Origin: Pseudomonas brassicacearum
Lineage (GTDB): Bacteria > Pseudomonadota > Gammaproteobacteria > Pseudomonadales > Pseudomonadaceae
Length of the DNA: 64,000 bases
Reading direction: 5' to 3'
NCBI RefSeq assembly: GCF_000585995.1
Contig: NZ_CP007410.1
Span: forward strand, 4,553,430 to 4,617,429
Shown: one piece after another, positions 47,709 to 56,893 of the stretch
Layout of the letters: each line of letters starts with the position of its first letter
Position numbering within the stretch: the stretch's first letter is position 1
The notes under the pieces: model-generated
The model's input: only the letters and a program-made list of their open reading frames with translations
Database searches by the model: none
Told to the model about the DNA's origin: nothing
Translations under genes and position numbers: made by a program

Positions 47709-48257
47709 ATGCCCTGGAAAAACTCGCAAAGCCGCTACAGTACCGTCACGGTGACCCTGCATTGGCTGATGCTGGTCCTGCTCGCCGTGGTTTACGCCTG
47801 CATCGAGTTCCGCGGGATCTTCCCCAAGGGCAGTGGCGGCCGGACCCTGATCAAGGAAGCGCATTTCATGCTCGGCCTGACGGTGTTTGTGCTGGTCTGG
47901 CTGCGCCTGTTCGCCCGCAGCATGGGCAAGGCACCGGCGATTTTTCCGGCTTCGCCTGTGTGGCAAACCGTCCTGGCGCGCCTGATGCACTGGGCGCTGT
48001 ACCTGTTCATGATCGCCATGCCACTGCTCGGCTGGCTGATCACCAGCGCCGAAGGTCACCAGGTGATGTTCTACGGTTTCGATTTGCCGCTGCTCATCGA
48101 TCAAGACAAGGACTTCGCCAAACGGCTGGAAGGCTGGCATGTGCTGGGCGGCACCATCGGCTATTGGTTGATTGGCCTGCATGCCTTGGCGGGGCTGTAT
48201 CACCATTACGTGGTGCGCGATAACACGCTGCTGCGGATGATGCCAAAGCGCGGTTGA
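47709..48257 (+). CDS. Cytochrome b561 (second copy)
   Basis: A 182-residue four-helix membrane cytochrome b561, with heme ligands expected in TVTLHWLML, KEAHFMLG, LARLMHWALY and GWHVLGG. The ATG at 47709 has GGAGAG about ten bases upstream. It differs clearly from the copy at 32851 and has no obvious partner enzyme beside it. Confidence 0.9.
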   Translation: MPWKNSQSRYSTVTVTLHWLMLVLLAVVYACIEFRGIFPKGSGGRTLIKEAHFMLGLTVFVLVWLRLFARSMGKAPAIFPASPVWQTVLARLMHWALYLFMIAMPLLGWLITSAEGHQVMFYGFDLPLLIDQDKDFAKRLEGWHVLGGTIGYWLIGLHALAGLYHHYVVRDNTLLRMMPKRG

Positions 48258-48264
48258 CGGCGGG

Positions 48265-49173
48265 TTACCCGAACCCTCGGCGGCCTTGCAAGCCGCCGGT
48301 GTGCACGAAGATCAAGCGGGTGCCCGGGACAAATCGCCCGGCCTCCACCTGCGCCTTGAGCAACATCAGCGCTTTGCCGGTGTACACCGGCTCCAGCTCG
48401 ATTGCTTCGGTGGTTTCGATGAAGGCGCTGAGTTCGGCATCGACCCGGGCGAACCCGCCACGGCTGCCGTCGAACAACTCATAACGCGGACTACAAAGCC
48501 CCGCCGCCGCCACGATACTTGCGACCTGCTGCGCCACGCCGTGATCCTGGGGCACCGCCAGCACGCCATGGACCGGGCGCTCCCCCGCTTCAGCCAGCAC
48601 CAGCCCCGCCAGCGATGTTCCGGTGCCGCAGGCCAACCACCAGCCCTGATAATCCGCCCACCCCAATGTCACCAGTTGTTCACGGGCACTGGTCACCCAG
48701 CTCATGCAGCCCTGCGCACCGGGCAATCCTGAACCGCCCTCGGGCACCGGATGCAAATGAGGATAACGCGCCTGCCACGGCCCCCAGAAATCCGCGGCGT
48801 GTCGCGCTCGGTATCCGCCATACCCCAACCAGTGCAGCGTCATACCGAACGCTTTCAGGTCGAGCACCGTTGGCGTGTCCTGGGGATGGCCGCGCAGCAG
48901 CCCGACCGTTGCAAAACCGAAGCGCTTGCCTGCCGCGGCCAGGGCATGCAGATGGTTGGAATACGCGCCCCCCAGGCTCATGACCCCTTCGGCACCGGCC
49001 TCGTGGGCGGCGCGTAAGTGGTGAACCAGCTTGAACCACTTGTTACCACTGATCAGCGGATCGATCCGGTCCAGACGCAACACCGCCACTTCAATGCCGG
49101 CACGGGCAAGCCAGTCCAGATGAAGGGGTTCGAGGTGGGGTTGGGGTTGCCAGTCGAGGGCGGGAAACAGCAT
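48265..49173 (-). CDS. PLP-dependent D-cysteine desulfhydrase / ACC deaminase-like enzyme
   Basis: A 302-residue fold-type II PLP enzyme. The PLP lysine is in ISGNKWFKL (Lys45), followed by GGAYSNHLHALAAAGKRFG and the glycine-rich phosphate loop ACGTGTSLAGL near 180. True ACC deaminases conserve specific Glu/Leu residues that cannot be checked here, so D-cysteine desulfhydrase or a related D-amino acid lyase activity is more likely. Its start abuts the REPIN array region. Confidence 0.85.
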   Translation of the reverse strand: MLFPALDWQPQPHLEPLHLDWLARAGIEVAVLRLDRIDPLISGNKWFKLVHHLRAAHEAGAEGVMSLGGAYSNHLHALAAAGKRFGFATVGLLRGHPQDTPTVLDLKAFGMTLHWLGYGGYRARHAADFWGPWQARYPHLHPVPEGGSGLPGAQGCMSWVTSAREQLVTLGWADYQGWWLACGTGTSLAGLVLAEAGERPVHGVLAVPQDHGVAQQVASIVAAAGLCSPRYELFDGSRGGFARVDAELSAFIETTEAIELEPVYTGKALMLLKAQVEAGRFVPGTRLIFVHTGGLQGRRGFG

Positions 49174-49251: not shown

Positions 49252-50965
49252 TCCCTGTGGGAGCCCGCTCCCACAGGGGACTGGCGGCGGACACTGAGTT
49301 TGTGAACGGCCGAGAACAAATGTGGGAGCGGGCTTGCTCGCGAAGACGGCGGTACATCCAACATCGATGCAAGCTGACTCACCGCTTTCGCGGGCAAGCC
49401 CGCTCCCACAAGGGACTGGCGGCGGACACTGAGTCTGTGAACGGCCAAGAACAAATGTGGGAGCGGCCTTGCTCGCGAAGACGGCGGCACATCCAACCTC
49501 GATGCAAGCTGACTCACCGCCTTCGCGGGCAAGCCCGTTCCCACAGGGGGCTGGCGGCGGACACTGAGTCTGTGAACGGCCGAGAACAAATGTGGGAGCG
49601 GGCTTGCTCGCGAAGACGGCGGCACATCCAACCTCGATGCAAGCTGACTCACCGCTCTCGCGGGCAAGCCCGCTCCCACAGGGGACCGGCGGCGGACACT
49701 GAGTCTGTGAACGGCCGAGAACAAATGTGGGAGCGGGCTTGCTCGCGAAGACGGCGGTACATCCAACATCGATGCAAGCTGACTCACCGCTTTCGCGGGC
49801 AAGCCCGCTCCCACAGGGGACTGGCGGCGGACACTGAGTCTGTGAACGACCGAGAACAAATGTGGGAGCGAGCTTGCTCGCGAAGACGGCGGCACATCCA
49901 ACCTCGATGCAAGCTGACTCACCGCCTTCGCGGGCAAGCCCGCTCCCACAGGGGGCCGGCGGCGGACACTGAGTCTGTGAACGGCCGAGAACAAATGTGG
50001 GAGCGGGCTTGCTCGCGAAGACGGCGGCACATCCAACCTCGATGCAAGCTGGCTCACCGCTTTCGCGGGCAAGCCCGCTCCCACAGGGGACTGGCGGCGG
50101 ACACTGAGTCTGTGAACGGCCGAGAACAAATGTGGGAGCGAGCTTGCTCGCGAAGACGGCGGCACATCCAACCTCGATGCAAGCTGACTCACCGCTTTCG
50201 CGGGCAAGTCCGCTCCCACAGGGGACCGGCGGCGGACACTGAGTCTGTGAACGGCCGAGAACAAATGTGGGAGCGAGCTTGCTCGCGAAGACGGCGGCAC
50301 ATCCAACCTCGATGCAAGCTGACTCACCGCCTTCGCGGGCAAGCCCGCTCCCACAAGGGACCGGCGGCGGACACTGAGTCTGTGAACGGCCGAGAACAAA
50401 TGTGGGAGCGGGCTTGCTCGCGAAGACGGCGGCACATCCAACCTCGATGCAAGCTGACTCACCGCCTTCGCGGGCAAGCCCGCTCCCACAAGGGACTGGC
50501 GGCGGACACTGAGTCTGTGAACGGCCGAGAACAAATGTGGGAGCGGGCTTGCTCGCGAAGACGGCGGCACATCCAACCTCGATGCAAGCTGACTCACCGC
50601 TTTCGCGGGCAAGCCCGCTCCCACAGGGGACTGGCGGCGAACACTGAGTCTGTGAACGACCGAGAACAAATGTGGGAGCGGGCTTGCTCGCGAAGACGAC
50701 GGCACATCCAAAATCGATGCAAGCTGACTCACCGCTTTCGCGGGCAAGCTCGCTCTCACAAGGACTGGCGGCGGATACTGAGTCTGTGAACGGCCGAGAA
50801 CAAATGTGGGAGCGAGCTTGCTCGCGAAGACGGCGGCACATCCAACATCGATGCAAGCTGACTCACCGCTTTCGCGGGCAAGCCCGCTCCCACAGGGGAC
50901 TGGCGGCGGACACTGAGTCTGTGAACGGCCGAGAACAAATGTGGGAGCGAGCTTGCTCGCGATAG
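49252..50965. repeat. Tandem REPIN array: 12 units of 135 bp
   Basis: The sequence TGTGGGAGCG recurs at 49321, 49456, 49591, 49726, 49861, 49996, 50131, 50266, 50401, 50536, 50671, 50805 and 50940. Each unit consists of a full REP doublet (about 90 bp) and a constant 45-bp spacer (ACTGAGTCTGTGAACGGCC...). Spacing is 135 bp each time except one 134-bp unit (50671-50804). A collapsed doublet (49254-49277) begins the array and a single REP half ends it. Units differ at only a few bases. Because 135 is divisible by three, artificial frames of over 500 codons stay open on both strands; they are not genes. Confidence 0.95.
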
Positions 50966-50972
50966 TTGCGCC

Positions 50973-53033
<2,061 letters not shown>

Positions 53034-56810: not shown

Positions 56811-56852
56811 GCTTCAGCTTGCCGCTTTTGATGTGTCGCCTGTCGCTGCATC

Positions 56853-56893
56853 AGAGCTCTGTCATTAGAGCCCCGTCATTAGAGCTCCGTCGC
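56853..56893. repeat. Three tandem 14-bp repeats
   Basis: AGAGCTCTGTCATT (56853), AGAGCCCCGTCATT (56867) and AGAGCTCCGTCGC (56881, partial) in direct order, overlapping the 3' end of the 28-codon gene. Origin unknown; probably replication slippage. Confidence 0.8.

Follow-up and report, generated by a model that had tools for sequence, protein, structure and literature searches.

The tract between a gene for a PLP-dependent enzyme and a fadH-like gene is probably a non-coding BIME-type array of RAYT-associated repeats that grew by recombination or slippage. Within the window (the whole stretch of 64,000 nucleotides of the Pseudomonas brassicacearum genome that was analysed), the array spans positions 49256-50962 and holds 12 complete REPINs at a pitch of 135 bp, one step being of 134 bp.

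Structure of the array

TRF reported a single array at 49262-50962 (period 135, 12.6 copies, 95% matches, score 3115). Anchors placed on the left REP numbered 13, from 49314 to 50933, and were separated by ten steps of 135 bp followed by one of 134 and one of 135. The mean pairwise identity of the 12 units was 95.9%, which is near-identical tandem repetition. These results uphold a previous reading of the sequence alone (the 'sequence-only reading'), which had described twelve tandem units with few changes among them, each made of a full REPIN and a fixed 45-bp spacer; the spacer proved to be a CCAC-spacer-GTGG junction.

One edge of the array is a REPIN whose middle is deleted, the start of the left REP being joined to the end of the right REP in a 20-bp palindrome (49256-49275; layout 'L R+3'). 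Next to it, at 49276-49320, lies the first 45-bp junction of a series of 13; the junction is the spacer of an inverse, or 'tail-to-tail', pair. The 12 complete REPINs, with their GTGG ends outside, then alternate with this junction from 49321 to 50894. The last junction copy (50895-50939) and a terminal lone REP (50940-50962) complete the array, 10 bp from the stop codon of the fadH-like gene. The latter (50973-53033, minus strand) resembles 2,4-dienoyl-CoA reductase genes of the FadH/old-yellow-enzyme family of oxidoreductases (25 NCBIfam matches shown, all below curated cut-offs). The other neighbour, also on the minus strand (48265-49173), is predicted to encode a PLP-dependent enzyme of the D-cysteine desulfhydrase/ACC deaminase-like family (8 matches, all below curated cut-offs). 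Its start lies about 82 bp beyond the edge opposite to the fadH-like gene, so that the array is downstream of one gene and upstream of the other. No Rfam family was found at gathering scores between positions 48000 and 52000 of the window.

The repeated element has the properties of a REPIN: an inverted pair of REPs with GTGG ends outside, a fixed spacing (73 bp between the starts of the two REPs, taken as 17-mers, in each of the 12 copies), and the capacity to form a hairpin. As a measure of the latter, the spacers of 58 isolated classic pairs had a mean fold z of -3.01, compared to -0.24 for the control. The array as a whole is built as a BIME, being extragenic, with REPs of alternating orientation and two kinds of inter-REP segment.

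Two junction types of one REP family

The 45-bp spacer is not the mere filler that it had been taken for, but the second junction type of the same REP family, which is also dispersed on its own. In the classic REPIN, the GTGG ends are outside and enclose a hairpin spacer of about 43 bp; in the inverse pair, they are inside and border a weakly palindromic spacer of about 45 bp. The array alternates both junctions, and its pitch is the sum of the two. In 800 kb picked regardless of REP content, 234 REPs were found, with 43 isolated pairs in the classic order (LR) and 30 in the inverse order (RL), four of the latter sitting in one 489-bp tandem repeat. The exact pattern of a right REP, 10 to 70 bases and a left REP occurred at least 290 times on the plus strand, compared to 0 in the control. 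The lengths of isolated inverse spacers were collected over 1.2 Mb, one third of which (400 kb) had been picked to hold inverse pairs, the ratio of pair types being taken from the 800 kb only: 29 of 55 were 44 to 48 nt long by the measure applied there, and shorter ones clustered at 18 to 20 and 24 to 30 nt.

Palindromic positions made up a fraction of 0.469 in the long isolated inverse spacers (26 non-redundant), compared to 0.328 ± 0.014 after shuffling and 0.316 in the control. This fraction was 0.433 in the short ones (shuffled, 0.360 ± 0.026), 0.389 in array spacers taken as one representative per array (n = 13; shuffled, 0.323 ± 0.020), and 0.588 in classic spacers.

The possibility that the array spacer is a duplicated local flank was not supported in the window, where its similarity to the sequence just outside the array was 0.14 on the single comparable side, for a baseline of 0.40. 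A local duplication of one REPIN with its flanks would then not suffice, and a unit would have to have been imported. An edge resembling the array spacer was observed at L033, L039, L040 and L085. Spacers were alike inside most arrays (mean identity 0.75 to 0.98; 0.68 in the mosaic array L042). Between the arrays of this genome (78 pairs), mean identity was 0.876 for the classic parts and 0.639 for the spacers; the window spacer resembled those of L037 to L041 (0.66 to 0.69, 99% limit 0.64), and not those of the other seven arrays.

Arrays in the same genome and in other Pseudomonas

The sequence-only reading held that REPINs normally occur singly. This does not fit the genome, where REPINs are often in tandem, nor is rarity of such an array supported: 13 arrays were examined, window included, with 2 to 16 REPINs each at the mismatch limit used. 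The 12 others are fetched regions of other groups of tandem matches, and array and locus counts are to be read as 'at least'. The window unit had at least 286 matches in the 6.65-Mb genome, and at least 205 in a second search that scored fewer candidates. All 13 arrays share one layout, with local irregularities in L039 and L042: base periods were 133 to 137 bp, the REP starts inside a REPIN were separated by 73 bp (by 69 in part of L042), and successive REPINs by a step of 57 to 65 bp, apart from one irregular step in L039. The mosaic array L042 (genome positions 3789625-3790467) contains two kinds of spacer, one of which is like the reverse complement of that of L041; this suggests an exchange between distant arrays.

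Several smaller or different repeats were recorded as well. Three REPINs are in tandem at genome position 78826, and two, built alike but with another spacer, at 1626-1853 of the window. A different type of array, at genome positions 426334-427062, is a direct repeat of a single REP (period 72 bp, 10.2 copies). A 489-bp tandem repeat of 3.9 copies, each containing an inverse REP pair besides a further REP-like sequence, is present at 206107-208030, and a 318-bp tandem repeat of about 21 copies, which may be a gene for a large repeat protein, at 193072-199706. The window also has a 14-bp tandem repeat (3.1 copies) at 56849-56891.

With the inverse gap left free at 15 to 75 bases, the tandem pattern was present in 38 of 149 Pseudomonas genomes, that is, in 37 besides our own, and no control matched; the pattern covers this REP class only and allows no mismatches, and the other 111 genomes were without it. 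Pitch was surveyed on 150 listed matches, which came from 8 of the 38 positive genomes and gave 58 loci. Among the matches listed, the modal gap from CCCAC to GTGGG was 43 to 49 in 49 of the 58 loci, the gap in the window being 47; a pitch near 134 bp thus recurs in other Pseudomonas. Exceptions include a long array in one genome (G034), with a gap of 38 and a pitch of about 126 bp.

Spacers of different loci had seemed mostly unrelated, a view overturned by the weak consensus that they share, though they are strongly diverged. For the 49 of 58 listed loci with a gap of 45 to 49, mean best identity between genomes was 0.582, compared to a shuffled median of 0.529, and 103 of 1004 pairs were above the 99% limit set by shuffling, as were 53 of 172 pairs within genomes. 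Linking at the 99.9% limit gave 4 groups, one of them of 46. In view of this consensus, equal length may be plain descent, and from the sequences compared, the constant pitch may reflect either constraint or descent.

Age and turnover of the array

As judged from the relatives' sequences, the array probably expanded in this lineage and is young, in line with the recent expansion proposed earlier. Its age is not fixed, since the contigs of four or five relatives stop at the site (the count depends on whether G035, which ends on the fadH side, and L092, which ends on the other, are the same genome). In none of the 35 same-genus relatives for which the site was fetched do the two genes flank an array of this REP class. 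Of the gap values, 27 were below 1 kb, with a median of 143 bp, although two of these do not represent real gaps (L067 is a contig end, and no second gene was found in L073); in the eight longer gaps, no REP of this class was detected at 3 mismatches. A relative sequenced as one contig, G010, has one REPIN at the site. Among 80 named loci, ten had at least 81% protein identity, including records of P. brassicacearum, P. thivervalensis, P. corrugata, P. tehranensis and P. agronomica; six of these ten had one REPIN in the gap, and four had a contig end. All seven readable close relatives (G010 and the six named) therefore have a single REPIN. Contig ends at the site were commoner in the ten closest loci (four) than in the other 70 (also four; Fisher P = 0.007). 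The contig of G035 likewise stops there, inside a REP, and such sites could hide arrays. The outer flank of the window array was 0.60 to 0.64 alike to those of five relatives, for a 99% shuffle limit of 0.63, so that orthology of the REPIN position rests on the shared gene pair and not on flank identity.

REPIN number differed from that of G010 at 8 of 10 comparable loci, which amounts to the length polymorphism of BIMEs between species. The complete REPINs numbered 12 in the window array and one in G010. Equal numbers were found at L033 (three in both) and L034 (two in both). At the remaining loci there were 16 REPINs here for one pair in G010 (L035), 7 for 3, with four inverse junctions (L036), 7 for none (L037), 8 for two left REPs 133 bp apart (L038), 16 for nine right REPs at steps of about 134 bp (L041), 9 for one inverse pair (L043), and 8 for one REP (L044). 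Right flanks were matched for 9 of 10 loci (L039 being the exception), and L040 and L042 gave no left flank; adding the window, L033 and L034 to the flank-matched set gave the ten loci compared. Where both genomes had arrays, spacer similarity reached 0.74 at L036, whereas the spacers of L034 (0.55) and L033 (0.48 to 0.57) were not similar; the mean of 0.53 for L041 includes unrelated stretches. The array is probably a length-polymorphic marker.

RAYT genes and the growth of the arrays

Two RAYT genes were found in the genome. A RAYT of 152 aa (NF047646, 146.9 bits for a cut-off of 80) sits between two inverse junctions of the array REP class, in the layout R-s-L-[RAYT]-R-s-L, the final L of which is degenerate and was assigned by eye; as for BIMEs, a cognate intact RAYT is thus bordered by inverted REPs of the same class. 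The second RAYT gene is an open frame of 249 aa (L046, 7208-7957, minus strand), and no REP of the array class was found in the 15 kb of its locus. A scan with a short motif, run without a chance control, covered 26 of the 30 RAYT loci retrieved (L253 to L256 were left out): an inverse junction of 44 to 47 bp was present on at least one side in five (L227, L229, L232, L234 and L236), and junctions of 20 to 27 bp in six more (L237, L240, L241, L246, L247 and L251).

Two routes fit the growth of the arrays: unequal exchange or slippage, and RAYT circles. We prefer a scheme in which REPINs were spread by RAYT, after which near-identical 135-bp units recombined by unequal exchange of the RecA type, or slipped during replication, until the array had 12 units in this lineage. 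The array would be for the most part selfish or neutral, and any effect on the 3' end of the fadH-like transcript would be incidental. Three observations favour this route. Divergent units occur at or near the edge of five arrays (window, L035, L037, L040 and L043), and not in L036, L038, L041 or L044. Order effects were detected in three of nine arrays tested at three lags, with uncorrected P values (window, lag 3, P = 0.035; L038, lag 2, P = 0.012; L040, lag 1, P = 0.022), and were absent from L035 and L041. Lastly, array length differs between species.

The second route, which we regard as possible though distinctly less likely, is that RAYT itself makes the arrays: a unit would be excised as a single-stranded circle of about 134 nt, which would then either serve as template for rolling replication or integrate into a REPIN already in place. 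The pitch would be the length of the circle, and the inverse junction its closed end. Room for such circles is left by the near-constant pitch (gap of 43 to 49 in most of the listed loci of eight genomes) and by spacers that are alike inside most arrays and mostly unlike the outer flanks. The inverse junctions bordering some RAYT genes point the same way, and a rolling-circle model has been published for BIMEs (PMC2817692). However, 15 of the 26 RAYT loci had neither junction by the uncontrolled short motif, the weak spacer consensus allows descent to explain equal length as well, and recombination alone can copy and homogenise units.

A broader proposal, which we consider doubtful, is that the pitch of about 134 bp is a functional constant in Pseudomonas. 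RAYT or gyrase would read the unit length, which would therefore be kept even as the sequence of the inverse spacer diverges almost to chance level. The length read would be either that of a circle of about 134 nt, closed at the inverse junction that borders some RAYT genes, or that of about 130 bp of DNA wrapped by gyrase. If so, arrays would be RAYT concatemers or phased gyrase tracts and not random duplications. Among the titles and abstracts listed by the literature searches, none dealt with such a fixed pitch.

Gyrase and IHF binding

By analogy with E. coli, where DNA gyrase binds BIME-2 elements and gyrase sites are enriched in them, with a motif 130 bp long (PMC6379681), gyrase binding at the array is possible. 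That selection maintains the array as a tract for gyrase binding or nucleoid structuring, its pitch matching gyrase-wrapped DNA, appears improbable, even though the near-constant pitch would agree with it. Phasing of A/T at 10 to 11 bp, used as a proxy for gyrase, was significant in none of the 13 consensus units (lowest P = 0.072; window, P = 0.098). Moreover, readable relatives have no array at the site, the long array of G034 departs from the pitch, and most genomes searched were without the tandem pattern of this REP class under exact matching. The IHF binding also proposed earlier found no support: the best match to the IHF consensus in the array had 3 mismatches, the commonest value in 300 shuffles (2 mismatches in 59, 3 in 193 and 4 in 48), so that an IHF site between REPs, as in E. 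coli BIME-1, is no better than shuffles provide.

Assembly and coding potential

A repeat collapsed or inflated during assembly is a very improbable explanation. The array is 1.7 kb long, and the excess of contig ends among the closest relatives might be cited in its favour; however, the genome is a single contig, each of its many arrays has a spacer of its own and variants specific to single units, and arrays are also present in G010.

Open frames of 509, 537 and 538 codons cross the array, as had been pointed out. The divisibility of the period by three, however, is incidental: the array periods of the genome run from 133 to 137, and shuffling of the consensus unit, which has 3 of its 6 frames open, left at least one open frame in 4458 of 5000 cases and three or more in 1288. 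The array is most likely non-coding, and a repeat protein encoded by these long frames can be dismissed almost entirely, since open frames are expected for a 135-bp unit, the 21 variable columns are spread over codon positions without bias (7/8/6), and readable relatives have no array at the site.

Comparison with known repeat clusters

Both tandem REPIN clusters and BIMEs have been published before, and the array adds a large and clean case to this known class of repeats. Bertels and Rainey (2011, PMC3116915) described tandem clusters of REPINs with flanking sequence in P. fluorescens SBW25, which are likewise extragenic and RAYT-associated. They reported 16 ordered clusters, the largest with four REPINs and a REP, compared to 12 REPINs here and up to 16 elsewhere in this genome; the window array also differs in that its spacer is unlike its readable outer flank. 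REP doublets separated by 60 to 70 bp are known in the P. fluorescens group (PMC3390384). In the nomenclature of REP dimers (Di Nocera et al. 2013, PMC3733652), our classic pair is HH (tag outside) and the inverse pair TT (tag inside). These authors described TT spacers with complementary ends in P. putida and P. entomophila, and dimer clusters reiterated in tandem; a fixed array pitch of about 134 bp as the sum of HH and TT was not found in the available part of their paper. The BIMEs of Nunvar et al. (2010, PMC2817692) share with the array the alternating REPs, the two-segment modules placed head to tail and the RAYT between inverted REPs; in that work, RAYTs are bordered by REPs, and a third of them by BIMEs. 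What could matter beyond these precedents is the almost equal pitch, despite strongly diverged spacers, at loci in eight Pseudomonas genomes. Together with the same junction at some RAYT genes and the differing array length in related species, this regularity makes the link between RAYT and BIME arrays testable.
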